Assembly (NCBI GenBank): GCA_031266515.1
Contig: JAISAW010000144.1
Coordinates: 1-34,729, forward strand
DNA: 34,729 nt
DNA from: Eubacteriales Family XIII. Incertae Sedis bacterium
GTDB lineage: Bacteria > Bacillota > Clostridia > Peptostreptococcales > Anaerovoracaceae
Direction: 5' to 3'
Shown here: positions 11,056 through 18,294 of the stretch, piece by piece
Layout: each line of letters begins with the position of its first letter
How positions within the stretch are numbered: position 1 is the stretch's first letter
Program-made: the position numbers and the translations under genes
Notes under the pieces: generated by a model
What the model was told of the DNA's origin: nothing
Seen by the model: the letters and a program-made list of their open reading frames with translations, nothing else
Database searches by the model: none

Positions 11056-11652
11056 TTACATCTTGCCGGTATGCTTACGCCTGTCTCTATCCCACTTCTT
11101 TTTGGCCCAGACCAGCAGGAGCAGACACAGGAACAGCAGCAGGACAATGACCGCGGCAATCTCAAGCTTGACAAGAGGGCCTGAAGCATCGCGCCCATGG
11201 GCGCCCTTGCCATCCGCATTGTCAGGTTTGCCTGCAATGCCGGAGGCATCTTTGCCTGCGGTATCCCCCTTGGCGTGAGCCGCGCCTGAACCACTTAGCG
11301 TTTTTACGGCGGACCTGGTCACGGTATCCGCGCCGGACGCATTCGCCTTGCCCGCACCAGGCGTATCCGCAGCACCTCCGCCAGGCGTATCGCCGGGCTT
11401 CGGAGGCACTATGGGCGGGACAGGATCAATTGGCGGCGCAGGTGAAGGACCCTCGTCTAAAATAACGTATCCATCTACCTCGATTACAAAACTGTCCCCT
11501 GAATTGCCCTGGACATTTTCATATTCGGTTTCCGCCGCCACAAACCCCGCCTTGCCCTGCGGAGCCTCGGCGGCAGCTACGGCTACAGTAGAGCCTGCAA
11601 TCAACAGGAAACAGACTGAAGCCGCCGTCAGTGCCAGAAGCGTTTTTTTCAC
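11056..11652 (-). CDS. Secreted/anchored Pro-Gly-Ala-rich surface protein with C-terminal TM and basic tail
   Basis: Signal peptide MKKTLLALTAASVCFLLIAGSTVAVAAA; PPIDPVPPIVPPKPGD linker; C-terminal LEIAAVIVLLLFLCLLLLVWAKKKWDRDRRKH. No LPXTG seen. Confidence 0.75.
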   Translation of the reverse strand: MKKTLLALTAASVCFLLIAGSTVAVAAAEAPQGKAGFVAAETEYENVQGNSGDSFVIEVDGYVILDEGPSPAPPIDPVPPIVPPKPGDTPGGGAADTPGAGKANASGADTVTRSAVKTLSGSGAAHAKGDTAGKDASGIAGKPDNADGKGAHGRDASGPLVKLEIAAVIVLLLFLCLLLLVWAKKKWDRDRRKHTGKM

Positions 11653-11682
11653 GTAATCGCCTCCTTCCGCATCTCTCTCCGC

Positions 11683-12348
11683 TTAATTGATCGAGAATTC
11701 AAACGTCAGCGTGTACTTCGGCGTGTACGCCTTATCAAAGCCGCGGCCAATTTTGCTATCGTAAGTTCCCGTCAATTTGAAATCCCACTGCGAATTGGCC
11801 CCAAGTTTAGCGGAACCGATAGGCGTAGAGGAACCATATGATGCATTGGTTCCATTGCCGCTTATAAGCGAAATGTCAGGACCGTTGAATGTATTGCTGT
11901 CGGCTTTAGAGAGCAGCAGCCTCAGGTATTTATCGATCTCGTCGTTACTGGGGTTCACGGCCTCTCTTTCGAATTTAAACATACGGACATTAAGGTCACG
12001 GCTATGATCGTTACCTTCGACCCTGGCGTTATTCCTGATATGGTATACGGGCGATGAGATCGCGCCATCGTCTGTTTCAAACGCCGCCCAGATAAACTTC
12101 GTGGGAACCGATACGTTGACTTCGTACGGCTTGACATCCGGCTCATCATCACCTGTGCCAGGATCGATATTGACGTCTTCGCCCAGGTAGCCGTAAACGG
12201 GAATTTTCGCCGTCTCTGCACTATCGCCTTCAACTGAACCATAATCGACGTGGTCAGGCAGCGAGCCGTCCGCGAAGGCGAACATCGTAAACATGCTCAC
12301 CATCATGGCGATAAGCGCCAAACTTGATATTAATTTTGCTTTTTTCAT
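11683..12348 (-). CDS. Small secreted protein with a WxL-like/beta-rich domain shared with the C-terminus of the 931-aa protein
   Basis: Signal peptide MKKAKLISSLALIAMMVSMFTMFAFA; VPTKFIWAAFETDDGAISSPVYHIRNNAR...DKAYTPKYTLTFEFSIN. Confidence 0.75.
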   Translation of the reverse strand: MKKAKLISSLALIAMMVSMFTMFAFADGSLPDHVDYGSVEGDSAETAKIPVYGYLGEDVNIDPGTGDDEPDVKPYEVNVSVPTKFIWAAFETDDGAISSPVYHIRNNARVEGNDHSRDLNVRMFKFEREAVNPSNDEIDKYLRLLLSKADSNTFNGPDISLISGNGTNASYGSSTPIGSAKLGANSQWDFKLTGTYDSKIGRGFDKAYTPKYTLTFEFSIN

Positions 12349-12372
12349 TTGCTATACCTCCCTGGTATATCC

Positions 12373-12966
12373 TCAGTTATGCACCGTTATTATCAACGCT
12401 GCAGCTTGTTTGCCCTGCCAGGCTTTCGTTTCCGGGTCATAGGCATTCAGATAGGCGGTCGCTTTGTAGTCGCCTGCCTTAAGTGGTACGGACAGTTTCG
12501 CATTATCTATATATTGGTCGGGAAGTATGCCTCCCGAGTCGTAGACCATCTCTCCCGTGTCGTCCAGAAAGATCTGTACGACCATCGGGTAGACGTTGAA
12601 GCTGGGGTTTTCGATACCCAGGTTTCCCATGGCTTTCCCATTATCAAATTCCGGGCGTGCATTGATCTTGAAGCTGAAGTATGAGTCGTCCGCCGCCTTC
12701 TGCATCTGCTCTTTGATCTGGGCTGGCGTCATGCCGGGCAGATGCCCGTCCTCCGCGTCGCCCTGTCCCGGAAAAAGATCGCCTGCTATGATGCCGGCCG
12801 GCTTCTCCCACGGGAATTTGAATACACCCAATTGGTGCAATAGCAACAGGAGCAGGACCAGAGTAAGAAACATGATGGCAATGCGAATAATCCATTTCCG
12901 TTTTTCACCTTCCCTTTTTTCCTGCCCTGTCTCAGGAAATATTTTTTCTTTTGTTGTGATCATCAC
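12373..12966 (-). CDS. Membrane-anchored extracellular protein of unknown function (N-terminal TM, beta-sandwich-like domain)
   Basis: KRKWIIRIAIMFLTLVLLLLLLHQLG anchor; NVYPMVVQIFLDDTGEMVYDSGGILPDQYIDNAKLSVPLKAGDYKATAYLNAYD. Confidence 0.7.
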   Translation of the reverse strand: MMITTKEKIFPETGQEKREGEKRKWIIRIAIMFLTLVLLLLLLHQLGVFKFPWEKPAGIIAGDLFPGQGDAEDGHLPGMTPAQIKEQMQKAADDSYFSFKINARPEFDNGKAMGNLGIENPSFNVYPMVVQIFLDDTGEMVYDSGGILPDQYIDNAKLSVPLKAGDYKATAYLNAYDPETKAWQGKQAAALIITVHN

Positions 12967-13028
12967 CTTCTTCCCTTTCTTATTTTTTATATTTCAACTC
13001 CCCTGGAGCAGAAAACTGTTTTATCCTG

Positions 13029-15824
13029 TCACGAATACTCGTGCAGAGCGAATTTGAAGCCCAGCATGTATACAGGTTTTTTCGCCTTGTCGAAATTCCC
13101 CACATACCCGCCTTCAAGAGTGAAACCTTTTATAGGGTATAGGTAGCCATGGGGCGTAAGAGTCCCTATAAACTTATTGATTGAATCGCTTTTAGTAAGG
13201 AAACCTGTGTCGTCAAAAGCACTGGAGCCGCCATACGATATTCCTTTTAGCTTCAGGCTCATATCACCGTCCACTGCCGGATTCGTGGTCAGGTTAGTCT
13301 CAGCGGGATCCATTATAGCCAGGCTTTCTATCGAAACGTCAAGCGAATTCCTTCCCATGTTTTGGATGTAGTATTTCGGCGCAGTTATGACGCCCTTATC
13401 CGCCTCGAAAGCCGCAAATATCAGCTTTACGGGAACGGCAGCGGTAATTTCGGTCGGGTCGCCTTTCCAGATATTCACGGCAGCCGGAGTGCCCGCGAAA
13501 CTGTTTCCTGCTTGCTTGAGGCGCACATAGTAGTCACCGGATGAAAGGCCGGTGATTTCCGTACCGGAAACGGGATGCCACACGCCTTCTGTAGATTTGC
13601 GCCATTCCATAGCTCCCGTCACGTCTGTGATCCGGCCATCATTTCTGCCGTCGTACGTCTCGCCCTTCCCCTTTGGAGCTGGCGCGCCAGGCCGTGTGGG
13701 GACCGTGAGGCTCTGAGGTGTGCTGGACGCGGCATTTCCATCGCCTTTTCTTACTATGGGAAGGGTTTCGCCGCTCATCCATGTTTCCGGGATAGCGTAT
13801 GTCGTGCCAGGGACAATGACGCCGTCGCCGCCATTAAAAGAGTACGTCCCGCCAGACACAAGCCCATTCAGTACCTCATCTTTATAATCAATCCCGAGAT
13901 TTGGGGCGACGTACCGGTACGTCGCCGTGACTGTAGCCGGGTATGCAGGCATGGTAAATGTGGTATTCGCATTGCTGGCGTCGCCAAACGCCCCTTCCTT
14001 GTTCGTCGTCCACACATTGAACACTTGCCCGGCCGGAGCGGCTGATGCCTTGATGCTTGCATTTGCGCCTTCATTGTATTTGCCTGACCCGGTGCCATTT
14101 ACCACTGTCAGAGTGTGAAGTGTGCTAAAGGGAACGTCCAGCTTGATGAACCCATGAACCGACCCGCTCGGGCTTTTATAAGAGATGCCATGGGAACTGT
14201 TTTGTATATCCCATTCCGCCGTGGCGTCGGATGAGACTGTAAGATAGTCTGACGAGCCGATTTCGGGATCCGAAGATGGAGAGTGGTTGCTGTTATACGC
14301 GATTATAACGCTCTGGCCGGTCGGCTGGAAATTTTCTGTCGTGAGATCCGTATTCGGACTATCATACTTATTGACATAGACCACGTTCCCCTTGCCGACA
14401 AGCTTGGCGCCGTAGGCGAACAGTGTGCCGCCGCTGATGACAACATAGCTTCCACTGCCTGACACGCTGGCAGAAACAGCCAGGCCTGTCTTGGCGGTTA
14501 CCGTACCACCGTTGATCCTGACTCCCCCAATTTCCGGCCTGTCGGCGTAAACAACATCGCCCGTATTAGAGTTTACAAAGCCACCGTTGATACTGACAGT
14601 GGATCCGCCGCTAATATTCCGGGCATAAATAGTGGGGCCATTTTCTGCGCTGACCGTGCCGCCACTTACGATGATTTTCTTAGCATCGACAGCACTACTG
14701 CTTCCATTCGCTGATACGCTGCAATTACCACTGATAAATACGGTCTGAGCGGAAGACGAAGAATAAACAGCTGCTTTGGTTGATGAGCTATTGTATACCG
14801 AGCCTCCTCTGATAGTTATAACGCCGCCAGAACTGATGGCGGATCCATTCCCGGCGGATACCGCGCCGCTGGCAACCTCTACATCTGCGCCAACGAAATT
14901 GATGGTTGGGTTTTCGCCGCTGGAGGATATCGCACCACCTTCAATGAGGACATGTCCATTTTGAGCGTTTGAAGTGATGGCGCTTCCTGACGATGAAGAA
15001 ACTACGCCGTTTAATGCAACCTCAAGGACAGTATAATTATTAGCGCCGTTGAAAACGATAGCGTCGCCTGATGAGGATGTGATACTCCCCCTTGTAATCA
15101 AAACTTTAGCTTCTGATTCCACTGCAATGACGCTTCCTGCACCTCTATTCGCAATACTGTAGCTACTCGAGGCCAGAACGACCTCAAATATGCCTTTTCC
15201 GCTAACAGAAATTAGAGGTACACCGATACTCCCCCCATACCTGGCTCTCCATTGCAACGTTACCCCTTCCTTGATAACCAGATCCAGTGTGTCATTCGCG
15301 TTGGTTTTGCTTCCGCTGCAGTCAACGGTAACGGTATCGCCTTTTTCCGCGTTTTCTAAAGCATACTGTACCTTAGACTTGATAGCGGCTACATCCTCCC
15401 CTGCTGTAAAAGTAACAGGAATGGTGGAGGCCATAGGCCTGATCGCCGACATCGCATTAATTTCATCTGTAACGGATAACGCTGATTCAGTCGTGTCAAT
15501 TGCATTTTCCGCGTCAGGCGCGGGAGCTGTTGCTGTTTCTGTTTCAGATATATCCGCCCCGGCGGCGTCCGATCCGGGCGTATCATCTGCGGGCCCCTTT
15601 GCCGCTTCTGCGTCAGACGTGGACTCCGTCGCCGCAGGCTCTGTCGTCTTGTCAAGCGCGTCTACAGGTACCGATACAGGATCGGGTGCGCCCATGGATG
15701 CCGCAGGTACTGCGATGGGCCCAATATCCCATTCCGCAGCTCCCAAAGCTGACATTGGCATCAATGGCAGTACAATGGCCGACGCCAGCAAAAGCGCGAT
15801 GCTTTTTTGTTTGAGTGTTTTCAT
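13029..15824 (-). CDS. Large secreted beta-helix/adhesin-like surface protein
   Basis: Signal peptide MKTLKQKSIALLLASAIVLPLMPMSALGA; repeated ISGG.V...G.AI..-type rungs; InlB B-repeat-like TLTVVNGTGSGKYNEGANASIKASAAPAGQVFNVW...TFTMPAYPATVTATY; C-terminal domain like the 221-aa neighbour. GGAGGT RBS. Confidence 0.8.
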   Translation of the reverse strand: MKTLKQKSIALLLASAIVLPLMPMSALGAAEWDIGPIAVPAASMGAPDPVSVPVDALDKTTEPAATESTSDAEAAKGPADDTPGSDAAGADISETETATAPAPDAENAIDTTESALSVTDEINAMSAIRPMASTIPVTFTAGEDVAAIKSKVQYALENAEKGDTVTVDCSGSKTNANDTLDLVIKEGVTLQWRARYGGSIGVPLISVSGKGIFEVVLASSSYSIANRGAGSVIAVESEAKVLITRGSITSSSGDAIVFNGANNYTVLEVALNGVVSSSSGSAITSNAQNGHVLIEGGAISSSGENPTINFVGADVEVASGAVSAGNGSAISSGGVITIRGGSVYNSSSTKAAVYSSSSAQTVFISGNCSVSANGSSSAVDAKKIIVSGGTVSAENGPTIYARNISGGSTVSINGGFVNSNTGDVVYADRPEIGGVRINGGTVTAKTGLAVSASVSGSGSYVVISGGTLFAYGAKLVGKGNVVYVNKYDSPNTDLTTENFQPTGQSVIIAYNSNHSPSSDPEIGSSDYLTVSSDATAEWDIQNSSHGISYKSPSGSVHGFIKLDVPFSTLHTLTVVNGTGSGKYNEGANASIKASAAPAGQVFNVWTTNKEGAFGDASNANTTFTMPAYPATVTATYRYVAPNLGIDYKDEVLNGLVSGGTYSFNGGDGVIVPGTTYAIPETWMSGETLPIVRKGDGNAASSTPQSLTVPTRPGAPAPKGKGETYDGRNDGRITDVTGAMEWRKSTEGVWHPVSGTEITGLSSGDYYVRLKQAGNSFAGTPAAVNIWKGDPTEITAAVPVKLIFAAFEADKGVITAPKYYIQNMGRNSLDVSIESLAIMDPAETNLTTNPAVDGDMSLKLKGISYGGSSAFDDTGFLTKSDSINKFIGTLTPHGYLYPIKGFTLEGGYVGNFDKAKKPVYMLGFKFALHEYS

Positions 15825-15860
15825 TGCTATCAGTTACCTCCGTGTTACTGCAAGATTGCG

Positions 15861-16024
15861 TTAGTGCTCCAACAACTAAATATTGCACGTCGCGCCGGTC
15901 TTTTCTCCGTCATACTGCGTTGCCGGAACCCGCTGATACCGCAAGTATCAACGGAGCCCGACGCCTTGTCTGACGGAGAAAATCCTCGCCGCTTTGATGC
16001 AATATTTAATCGTCGAAGCACTAA
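15861..16024. repeat. 164-bp imperfect palindromic element, copy 2
   Basis: Ends ttagtgctccaacaactaaatattgca / tgcaatatttaatcgtcgaagcactaa; inner hairpin ccgctgatac-cgcaa-gtatcaacgg; aligns with the reverse complement of copy 1. Confidence 0.8.
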
Positions 16025-16066
16025 AAAAACAGCCCCTTGCGAGCGGCTCGGCTCGGGCTGTTTTTT
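16023..16066. terminator. Bidirectional intrinsic terminator-like hairpin
   Basis: aaaaaaacagccc...gggctgtttttta inverted repeat with A/T tracts on both sides, abutting palindromic copy 2. Confidence 0.7.
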
Positions 16067-16283
16067 AATGGCCTGTTTATTGGAAAAAGATACGAGAAAT
16101 TCGTATCCGGAGCGTTTGCCTGGCAATACCCCTCCCCTGTCCGGGGCATTGAGGTTGCCAGATTGCCTGTGCATTTTCGAAATCTCCAAGCCGGCTCCAT
16201 CACTAATGAAAGCTGCTCGCGAAAAAACGGCCGCAAAGCCGAACGGCGCCGGAAGTGCACATATTTTCTTGTTTATACTTGTG

Positions 16284-16480
16284 TCATTGCCCCGCTGGCT
16301 GAATGCCGCGCGTCGTCCCGATATTTTTTCCGCCATGCCGCACCGGCGGAACCCTTTGATAACCCTGCCTGGGATGAGCCTCGGCTTCACCTCGCAGTTG
16401 TCATCAAAGGAATTGTTCATCTCGTGCGATGAAGAAAACCCACGCAGACCCGGCGAAACATTCAGTCGCCGACGCGATGG
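16284..16480. repeat. 197-bp imperfect palindromic element, copy 3
   Basis: tcattgccccgctggctgaatg (16284-16305) pairs imperfectly with cattcagtcgccgacgcgatgg (16459-16480); nested ggaaccctttgataac / gttgtcatcaaaggaattgttc; aligns with copy 2 at both ends. Confidence 0.7.
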
Positions 16481-16896
16481 TTTTCGATACGAACCGTACC
16501 TAATCCCCATAATATTTATAATCCCCCAATTATTTGACCGTGCGAGCTGCTCCCGCACCGCATAATTGCTCACTCATAGTACTATCTTTTTATCGAAAGT
16601 AAACACAAAAAATTTAAATTTATAGCTCCAAAGCGTTGGTTTATAATTCACCCTTCCCGGAAAGGGCTAAAATTTCAATGATTTTGCGTGTCTCCTGGTT
16701 TTGTTACAATTTTGTTACACGGCGCACATGCCAGGCAGTATAAATGGGCGGCAGATTGAGTGGGAATCAGATTATAATCAGGCAAAGGTGTTGCAATTTC
16801 AACATTTCTCGGTTGCCAAAAATACATTTTTGACATTTTCGCACTGCTTGCCGATTCGGGGTGCTGAAAAATCGGGGAGTATGGAGAGGAAGCGAA

Positions 16897-18069
16897 CTAC
16901 TCTGCCAGGCGGCGGCGCCTGTATTCTATCGGGGTCATGCCTGTCACGTTTTTGAAAATGGTCGTGTAGTAGCTCTGGCTTGAAAACCCATAGAGCAAAG
17001 CGATCTGAGAGATCGAATAGCCGGTGTGGCGCACGAAATAGCATGACTCCTGCACCTTGCGCATGGCCGTGTACTCGGTGAAGGAAAGCCCGGTCTCGCG
17101 CCTGAATCTGGATGAGAGGTAGGCGGGGTGCACACCTGCATATGCGGCGGCGGCATTCAGTGATACCTTGGTATCAAGGTGGTTTTCCACATAGTGCATC
17201 ACCTTGACGACAGTGGCCGAATACGAGGCTTCCAGACGCTGACGTACCAGTGCGATGAACTGCAGCAGTATATTTTCTTCAAACGCCAACACTGCGTCGC
17301 GGGCGGCCATCTCTTCGACCCTCCGGGTCAGTGCGTCGCTGAGCGCGAAAGCATCGTTTGCACTCACTCCGCCCTGGATGGCGGCGCGCGATAAAAAGGC
17401 AATGGATCCAATCATGGAATTTTTTGCAGAACGCAGGGAATCCTTTGCGAGCACCGCCTTATCGCCTTGGGCCGTTATCTCCCGCAGAGCGACCAAAGCT
17501 GCCTCGCCATCGCCCTTCGTGACAGCTGTAGAGAGCTTTTCCTCAAGCGCATACGGGCTGTGCCTGAACATGGCCTCGCGGTCCGTGTAAATACTGTCAT
17601 AGTACTGTCTGGGCTTCGCCGGCTCTTTCCCCAGACCGAGTGCATCCCTGTTCTCCTCTATGAACCCGTGCGCCAGGAGAATGACATCGATGGCGCAGCC
17701 GTCCTCCGCCCATGCATTTTTTGATGCGCCCTGTGGAATGGCGTCTTCGTATTTTTCGTATTTTTTCTGCCAGGATCTGCACAAGGCAAGTATCTCATGT
17801 CCGCTTAGCTCGTTTAGGCGAGCTTCGCAGGCAATGAACTGTGCGGCTCCGACAAATGCGTTTTGCGCCGCGCCTGCCGCGCCTGCAAAGCGGACGCCTG
17901 TCCCCGCAACTGCCACAGTGTCGTCCAGGGGCACATCAAACAGCTTGCCAAGCGTAGACGAGGCGACTGTCGCGCACATGCCGCCATACCGGGCTTCGGC
18001 GCCTCGCACATGCTTTTGTACAAGGATTCTCAGGTCGTCAGGTTGCGTATTCATCGGTTCACCATACAT
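16897..18069 (-). CDS. AraC-family transcriptional regulator with atypical N-terminal domain
   Basis: C-terminal double HTH: VVKVMHYVENHLDTKVSLNAAAAYAGVHPAYLSSRFRRETGLSFTEYTAMRKVQES...SISQIALLYGFSSQSYYTTIFKNVTGMTPIEYRR. Start ambiguous (18141, 18069 or 18054). Confidence 0.9.
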   Translation of the reverse strand: MYGEPMNTQPDDLRILVQKHVRGAEARYGGMCATVASSTLGKLFDVPLDDTVAVAGTGVRFAGAAGAAQNAFVGAAQFIACEARLNELSGHEILALCRSWQKKYEKYEDAIPQGASKNAWAEDGCAIDVILLAHGFIEENRDALGLGKEPAKPRQYYDSIYTDREAMFRHSPYALEEKLSTAVTKGDGEAALVALREITAQGDKAVLAKDSLRSAKNSMIGSIAFLSRAAIQGGVSANDAFALSDALTRRVEEMAARDAVLAFEENILLQFIALVRQRLEASYSATVVKVMHYVENHLDTKVSLNAAAAYAGVHPAYLSSRFRRETGLSFTEYTAMRKVQESCYFVRHTGYSISQIALLYGFSSQSYYTTIFKNVTGMTPIEYRRRRLAE

Positions 18070-18294
18070 TACGAATTGACATCTTATATATAAGCCGCCC
18101 TTTGAATGACAGGCGCAGTTATCAGGATGGGCGAACGTCAACCCTCTGAGCGGTAAACTCCAAACCCGCTAAAACCGGGAGGGGGTTCTCGCATGGCACC
18201 TTCCAACCATTTGCATTTCATACAAACGGGGGTAGGTGCGCATCGCACGGAGGCTCGCACCCGGGTCGCCGCTTCGCTTTGCACAGTTATTTTT

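Follow-up and report, generated by a model that had tools for sequence, protein, structure and literature searches.

A four-gene cluster in Clostridia that may display a large adhesin-like protein on a WxL/csc-like plan

In a gut Clostridia bacterium, four tightly spaced genes on the minus strand of the window (the whole 34,729-nucleotide stretch of DNA that was analysed) encode products that are each exported or anchored. On balance, we favour the reading that they form an operon for the surface display of a large adhesin-like protein, according to the plan of WxL/csc clusters but built from different protein families. The 931-aa protein would probably be clipped onto the surface by cluster proteins, much as in the csc clusters of lactic-acid bacteria. 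The features on which this reading draws are as follows.

13029..15824, minus strand: 931-aa secreted large protein, with a putative CscC-like role; the same C-terminal domain is found on large proteins in the relatives L017, L033 and L034
13041..13460, minus strand: C-terminal copy of the shared domain in the 931-aa protein, not preceded by an N-terminal strand motif
12373..12966, minus strand: 197-aa membrane protein, with a putative WxLIP-like role (AF2 model, profile comparison)
12376..12675, minus strand: Ig-like domain of the 197-aa protein (AF2, pLDDT mostly above 90)
11683..12348, minus strand: 221-aa small secreted protein, with a putative CscB-like role
12175..12243, minus strand: N-terminal motif of the 221-aa protein, YGSVEGDSAETAKIPVYGYLGED, the proposed donor strand (matches the 198-aa family by profile, P 3.8e-5)
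11686..12117, minus strand: shared domain of the 221-aa protein (sequence match to the 931-aa protein; AF2 model)
11056..11652, minus strand: 198-aa exported protein, with a putative CscD-like role; homologs in L017, L018 and L032
11452..11523, minus strand: N-terminal motif of the 198-aa protein, YENVQGNSGDSFVIEVDGYVILDE (profile comparison)
11059..11181, minus strand: TM helix and basic tail at the C-terminus of the 198-aa protein, forming a membrane anchor (sequence)
16897..18141, minus strand: AraC-type regulator (PF12833/PF00165), 1.07 kb upstream of the cluster

Organisation of the cluster

All four ORFs are present in the order given by the first-pass annotation (931, 197, 221 and 198 aa), with intergenic gaps of 62, 24 and 30 bp and with GGAGG-type ribosome-binding sites ahead of the 931-, 221- and 198-aa genes. 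The spacing is operon-like, and export or anchor signals run across all four genes. Searches of Pfam, NCBIfam and PHROG gave no family covering the 197-, 198- or 221-aa protein, and searching solved structures by sequence gave no convincing relative for the 221- or 197-aa family. Judged by sequence, the protein families of the cluster appear to be matched by no library searched, while the plan itself looks csc-like.

The AraC-type regulator is a possible candidate for control of the cluster. Of the curated families, TIGR04094 (the YSIRK-adjacent surface-antigen regulator) comes nearest, at E 1.4e-32 but below its cut-off. A 242-aa ORF at 15845-16573 was set aside, as it looks spurious because of its overlap with a repeated hairpin element. 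A viral origin was also considered and rejected, no viral contigs matching the 197-aa protein or the shared domain.

A C-terminal domain shared by the 931- and 221-aa proteins

The proposed homology between the C-termini of the 931- and 221-aa proteins is borne out: the 221-aa protein aligns, at 37% identity and E 6e-9 (profile E 4.7e-48), with residues ~789-928 of the 931-aa protein. This is the only match of the 221-aa protein elsewhere in its genome, and the rest of the genome lacks the shared domain. The 221-aa protein comprises, in order, a signal peptide, an N-terminal strand motif, an acidic linker and the shared domain. It has few relatives, and AF2 confidence is limited accordingly: the model is weak, with a mean pLDDT of 64 and an unstructured N-terminal segment. 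The top Foldseek matches of this model are donor-strand fibre subunits (Caf1, CfaB, PapA and an archaeal thread), all with E > 1e-3. In its predicted fold the shared domain is pilin-like, with weak structural scores.

The first-pass annotation had likened the layout to WxL-type clusters while seeing no clear WxL pair. The layout stands, in that this is a surface cluster arranged like csc and co-conserved in relatives (G130, L032 and L033); the defining WxL domain was tested for and not found. The shared domain showed no similarity to WxL by profile (P 0.28, with 74 of 300 shuffles equally good), and the WxL domain PF13731, with its two W-x-L motifs, had no Pfam match in the cluster and was found in none of nine genomes. 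By profile, then, the shared domain was rejected as WxL.

A membrane-anchored Ig-like protein as putative partner

The 197-aa protein was expected to be anchored at its N-terminus, and the AF2 model places a TM helix at residues 14-45, between a cytoplasmic basic N-tail and a linker leading to the Ig-like domain (residues ~98-197). Among six profiles tested against this domain, DUF3324 of the WxL-interacting proteins was nearest (P 2e-4 to 9e-6, equalled by none of 300 shuffles). Because generic Ig families were likewise above background (BsuPI, P 1.4e-4; CARDB, P 5e-4), this relation to the nearest profile may instead derive from generic Ig similarity. Neither DUF916 nor DUF3324 was matched by the 197-aa protein in Pfam, and the absence of DUF916 speaks against full WxLIP identity. 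What the sequence does suggest is a membrane-anchored partner of the shared domain, as had been supposed.

The N-terminal strand motif and a possible linkage

The 198-aa protein consists of a signal peptide, an N-terminal strand motif, a Pro/Gly-rich spacer, a C-terminal TM and a basic tail, the last two as previously described. Also as described, LPXTG is absent from the window cluster, and no sortase signal is seen in the 198-aa protein. Anchors of the sortase type or with two TMs occur in the homologs from L017, L018 and L032: the L032 homolog ends in MPQTGE and the L017 homolog in TPTTGD, each followed by a TM and a basic tail. TIGR01167 gave scores of 11.9 and 15.0 bits, against a cut-off of 15.9. 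Because relatives bear such sortase-type signals, the anchor type appears to be interchangeable within the family. The earlier view of the 198-aa protein as a membrane scaffold is consistent with its TM anchor, but it would be more than a scaffold, given these relatives and the segment that it has in common with the 221-aa protein.

That N-terminal segment is absent from the first-pass annotation. The 198- and 221-aa families have one strand motif in common over 34 aligned columns (P 3.8e-5), a significance that rests on profile comparison rather than on the single-sequence test, which was not significant for the 198-aa protein of the window (p 0.43) and gave p 0.0004 for the L032 member. One of the 300 shuffles gave an abnormal score of 131.5, which was taken as a degenerate alignment. 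Whole-length hhalign runs that included the signal peptides returned only signal-peptide or two-column matches and were discarded. We also see that the N-termini of enterococcal CscD and small WxL proteins are alike (P 5.6e-4, 0 of 300 shuffles); the strand motifs of the window system and the enterococcal system gave no mutual match (P 0.16-0.81).

Following export through Sec, capture or stabilisation of the shared domain, in both the 221- and the 931-aa protein, would fall to the Ig-like domain of the membrane-anchored 197-aa protein, a WxLIP-like role. The 221-aa protein could then link the 931- and 198-aa proteins, the latter being membrane-fixed in the window organism and, in relatives, probably attached by sortase to peptidoglycan. 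Donor-strand complementation would be the most economical way of linking them, and we put it forward as an attractive but tentative hypothesis: the strand common to the 198- and 221-aa N-termini would fill an open beta-sandwich in the shared domain. Precedents for the overall reading are the csc clusters themselves (PMC1534035), strand insertion into WxL by WxLIP (PMC10599100) and the donor N-terminus common to TapA and TasA (PMC10151520). The 198-aa protein would be the base (donor and anchor), the 221-aa protein the linker (donor and acceptor) and the 931-aa protein the tip (acceptor and binding domain). A complete donor-strand surface complex of this kind in Gram-positive-type Clostridia, with tip adhesin, linker, base with interchangeable anchor and membrane-tethered Ig-like chaperone, is a similarly tentative proposition.

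The same features could belong to a TasA/camelysin-like secreted fibre or matrix. A polymer of the 221-aa protein would then be assembled with help from the 197- and 198-aa proteins, and the 931-aa protein would be a minor component or sit at the tip. We consider this unlikely. It would fit the donor-strand fibres at the top of the Foldseek list, and the N-terminal segment found in two genes parallels TapA and TasA, which have a donor N-terminus in common (PMC10151520). Distant relatives encoded beside 197-aa homologs are likewise built of a signal peptide, a strand and a VxVP beta-sandwich. However, none of 11 members matched camelysin/TasA of Pfam, even with E allowed up to 10, no SipW-type gene occurs among the ORFs of the cluster, and confidence in the 221-aa model is low. 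The conserved association with a single large protein also points to display more than to a fibre made in bulk.

The large protein and its possible ligand

The 931-aa protein comprises a signal peptide, an acidic/Ala-rich spacer, a repeat-rich probable beta-helix, an InlB B-repeat and the shared domain. The beta-helix of the first-pass annotation is plausible from the repeats, but the sole Pfam match is to the InlB B-repeat (Flg_new_2, residues 572-638).

Carbohydrate acquisition has been proposed as the role of csc clusters (PMC1534035), and large proteins in enterococcal WxL clusters are annotated as pectate-lyase-like adhesins. By analogy, the cluster could encode a plant-fibre or glycan capture complex, with the large protein as the polysaccharide binder, kept near transporters by the others. 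The window does encode a GH2-type glycosidase and a sugar-type MFS transporter (Pfam), and some relatives are probably termite-gut isolates. Against this, pyruvate phosphate dikinase and a regulator stand between these sugar genes and the cluster, and the sugar genes are not kept beside it in L032. Moreover, the 931-aa protein has no match to a carbohydrate-binding family, and its repeat region shows no similarity to an enterococcal large WxL protein. Glycan capture is, in our judgement, rather improbable.

Conservation in relatives

The synteny check proposed in the first-pass annotation was run, and the cluster held up. G130 (Clostridiales Family XIII) has two copies with the order kept, the large gene being cut by a contig end in both, and its homolog of the 197-aa protein is 80% identical. 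Two other MAGs carry parts of the cluster, with three of the genes in L032 and two in L033. The shared domain occurs in 4 of 351 family genomes, each time adjoining a homolog of the 197-aa gene; in L034 there is a large protein with the shared domain, and the partner genes are not adjacent. A regex survey of the neighbours of 197-aa homologs recorded an exported protein with a VxVxVP-type match in 13 of 20 loci, compared to 5 of 61 background ORFs; on inspection by eye some of these 13 proved false, and there were true neighbours that the survey missed. Homologs of the 197-aa domain do occur in varied settings, among them fusions to sortase and, in G126, element-like regions, as would be expected if these were unrelated secreted proteins with a common mobile beta-sandwich domain and no joint function, but this is very improbable because of the synteny seen in the two G130 clusters, the partial clusters and every family genome with the shared domain.

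Comparison with known systems

The display operon that we favour has points in common with several known systems. Like the TapA-TasA fibres of Bacillus subtilis (PMC10151520, PMC9674648), it has co-encoded secreted beta-sandwich proteins with a common N-terminal segment, and an initiator and subunit logic. It differs in two additional components, a large adhesin-like protein and an Ig partner anchored in the membrane; no sequence relation was found, and a polymer is not indicated here. The pilin-like predicted fold of the shared domain and the tip/linker/base logic would recall chaperone-usher pili, as does the 197-aa domain, which resembles PapD-type chaperones among many Ig folds. Unlike those pili, the four genes include no usher, there is no sequence relation and the structural scores are weak. 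A link to the sortase-dependent pili of Firmicutes is seen in G335, where an Ig-like domain homologous to that of the 197-aa protein is fused to a class C sortase, in a locus with LPXTG pilin-like proteins. The window cluster, in contrast, has no dedicated sortase, LPXTG pilins or recognised pilin domain, and the three sortase genes of the genome all lie on other contigs.

The closest comparison is with the csc clusters, which comprise CscA (a DUF916-DUF3324 WxLIP), CscB (small WxL), CscC (large WxL) and CscD (a short LPXTG protein) (PMC1534035, PMC9772566, PMC10599100), and in which the WxLIP inserts a strand into WxL (PMC10599100). Both have large and small secreted proteins with a common C-terminal domain in one operon, a membrane-anchored Ig-like partner, and a short N-terminal segment borne by a protein anchored in the wall or membrane (here the 198-aa protein, in the putative CscD slot), with an N-terminal strand common to the small protein and the anchor protein. 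In both, the genes are conserved together, and a beta-helix-type large protein occurs in WxL clusters and probably here. The window cluster differs in having no WxL domain, WxL pair or DUF916, in the position of the TM (at the N-terminus of the 197-aa partner, but at the C-terminus in WxLIP) and in its host, a Clostridia lineage rather than Bacilli.

WxL/csc clusters have been described as essentially restricted to Bacilli, which hold 99% of Firmicutes WxL proteins (PMC9772566), and the way their parts hold together is unsettled. The same four roles, taken by different families in uncultured Clostridia, suggest that this kind of display extends beyond the WxL domain, and provide an independent comparison for WxL/csc display. 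The question of strand donation by short anchor proteins extends to CscD of enterococci and lactobacilli; if true, donor-strand logic would also give the CscD peptides of WxL clusters an explanation that they have so far lacked.

A four-gene cluster with a duplicated C-terminal domain

Our main claim is that the cluster has a display role. Its four minus-strand genes lie where the first-pass annotation had placed them, separated by gaps of 62, 24 and 30 bp, and GGAGG-type ribosome-binding sites precede three of them. The domain duplication described in that annotation also holds: the 221-aa protein and the C-terminus of the 931-aa protein are homologous (37% identity over 147 residues, E 6e-9), and this C-terminus is the only other match to the 221-aa protein in its genome. 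No family covering the 198-, 221- or 197-aa protein was found in Pfam, NCBIfam or PHROG. For the 931-aa protein the only Pfam match was an InlB B-repeat, and "beta-helix" is a putative label suggested by the repeat pattern. A regulator gene that may control the cluster lies nearby:

16897-18141: AraC-type regulator; closest curated relative TIGR04094 (regulator adjacent to YSIRK surface antigens), score below cut-off

The stretch separating the cluster from the AraC gene contains a repeated MITE- or REP-like element in the form of a near-perfect long hairpin (15861-16024, 164 nt; fold z-score -9.9 for 15825-16075), with a terminator-like hairpin adjoining it at 16024-16066. Two further contigs of this genome carry copies that are 85-86% identical, and G130, a related genome, has a partial copy.

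Synteny and distribution in relatives

The window spans one entire contig (C95) of a metagenome-assembled genome that totals 1.79 Mb, comprises 147 contigs and is approximately 82% complete. Its closest syntenic relative is G130 (Clostridiales Family XIII bacterium isolate Gx485_bin216), and it has further relatives in Nc350_bin65 (Clostridiales) and in Cu122P5bin19, which carries an Actinomycetes label and is represented by a 3.5-kb contig. That contig (L033, WQUG01000084.1) carries a Clostridia-type cluster and is probably mis-binned in the Actinomycetes assembly. As the Cu122 prefix occurs in a paper on genomes from higher-termite guts, the group likely originates in the termite gut, and we infer the same for the window genome itself.

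G130 has two clusters. The first (L017) encodes a large protein with a terminal shared domain and homologs of the other three: one 80% identical to the 197-aa protein, one of 214 aa related to the 221-aa protein and one of 144 aa related to the 198-aa protein. The second (L018) keeps this gene order, and its contig includes only the end of the large gene. Locus L032 holds 197-, 221- and 198-aa-type genes in the same order; on a separate contig of that genome (L034), a large protein that has the shared domain stands alone. In L033 the gene for a large protein precedes that for a 197-aa homolog, which lies where the contig ends. By profile search, the shared domain occurs in 4 of 351 family genomes, always at a locus that also holds a 197-aa homolog.

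The 197-aa family is broader, found in 11 of 149 genomes of the family (single-sequence search) and in 16 of 297 genomes of the order (profile search, in which the weakest matches may be chance). Its members often have small exported neighbours that contain a "VxVP" beta-sandwich; by a crude regular expression, such a neighbour was present at 13 of 20 loci vs 5 of 61 background ORFs. In one genome (G126), a VTVP segment ("SVTVPLKV") and the 197-aa-type domain are joined in a single protein (L022 8107-8778). A second domain homolog (L023 7743-8423) lies ~46 kb away, and both are surrounded by many short hypothetical, methylase and resolvase-like genes with the look of mobile elements. Another genome (G335) has pilin-like loci in which LPXTG pilin-like proteins occur alongside fusions of the domain with class C sortases:

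L065 2871-4331, minus strand: class C sortase, C-terminal TM segment and 197-aa-type Ig-like domain
L066 2747-4432, plus strand: class C sortase, C-terminal TM segment and 197-aa-type Ig-like domain

The sortase family scan covered L065 only (NF033745, E 5e-61).

The 197-aa protein and the shared domain

The AlphaFold2 model of the 197-aa protein consists of a TM helix (14-45) and an Ig-like domain predicted with confidence (pLDDT mostly above 90). Foldseek matched this model to numerous Ig folds, among them pilus chaperones; no match was close. The best profile-profile partner was DUF3324 (score 27.4, P 2.2e-4, 0/300 column shuffles; up to P 9e-6 after two members were added), which is the second domain of WxL-interacting proteins; comparison with DUF916, WxL and the shared domain gave nothing. 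Since BsuPI (1.4e-4) and CARDB (5e-4), which are likewise Ig-like, also scored above background, we describe the domain as Ig-like and nearest to DUF3324, and withhold the label "DUF3324 protein". Within the class, only 2 of 291 genomes had true DUF3324, in one case with a score under the curated cut-off.

Profile comparison of the shared domain with WxL showed no similarity (P 0.28; 74/300 shuffles equally good). The shared domain is poorly modelled (mean pLDDT 64, with values mostly 60-84 in the domain), and the Foldseek list was headed by Caf1, CfaB, cannulae, FimH and PapA, with E-values of 2e-3 and up; an archaeal thread subunit was also among the matches. Most of these assemble by donor-strand exchange, and the predicted resemblance to donor-strand subunits is suggestive only.

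A common N-terminal motif

In the 198-aa protein a signal peptide is followed by a conserved N-terminal segment, a Pro/Gly-rich spacer and a membrane anchor, the last of which differs within the family: MPQTGE with TM segment and basic tail in L032, TPTTGD with TM segment in L017, and only a TM segment in the window; LPXTG-model scores of the relatives fall below cut-off. In L018 (1832-2728) the same gene slot holds a third anchor type, a two-TM tail with no sortase signal.

The mature N-termini of the 198- and 221-aa families align over 34 gapless profile columns (YENVQGNSGDSFVIEVDGYVILDE / YGSVEGDSAETAKIPVYGYLGED, P 3.8e-5), exceeded by one abnormal shuffle of 300. With the window 198-aa protein as a single sequence the test was not significant, and neither the window's large protein nor that of L017 has the motif ahead of its shared domain. 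Among the fetched enterococcal clusters, CscD (the short LPXTG protein) and small WxL proteins also have similar N-termini, e.g. NYDSNGVTAFYGKY and NYDTNGVITFTPN (P 5.6e-4, 0/300 shuffles). As the motifs of the enterococcal and Clostridia systems are unlike in sequence, we regard the pattern as a design common to both and do not claim homology. On an Enterococcus gilvus plasmid (L072 4819-5204), the CscD-type gene of a WxL cluster is apparently frameshifted and annotated as two hypothetical proteins.

Comparison with known assemblies

We hypothesise that the cluster proteins are linked by donor strands. The large protein, as acceptor only, would form the tip; the small protein, donor and acceptor, would be the linker; and the 198-aa protein, donor and anchor, would be the base. 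Gram-positive precedent exists in TapA/TasA, two proteins with a common donor N-terminus (PMC10151520), and AlphaFold2 predicts that a strand from WxLIP completes the WxL sandwich (PMC10599100).

The WxL-type layout noted at first pass stands in part: the arrangement fits that of csc clusters, which are reported absent from clostridia (PMC1534035), and Bacilli hold 99% of Firmicutes WxL proteins (PMC9772566). The WxL domain was tested for and not found, so we set this class aside and do not file the cluster under it. The four-gene cluster probably works like a WxL cluster, and the tip, linker and base logic of donor-strand assemblies matches the domain logic of its large, small and 198-aa proteins.
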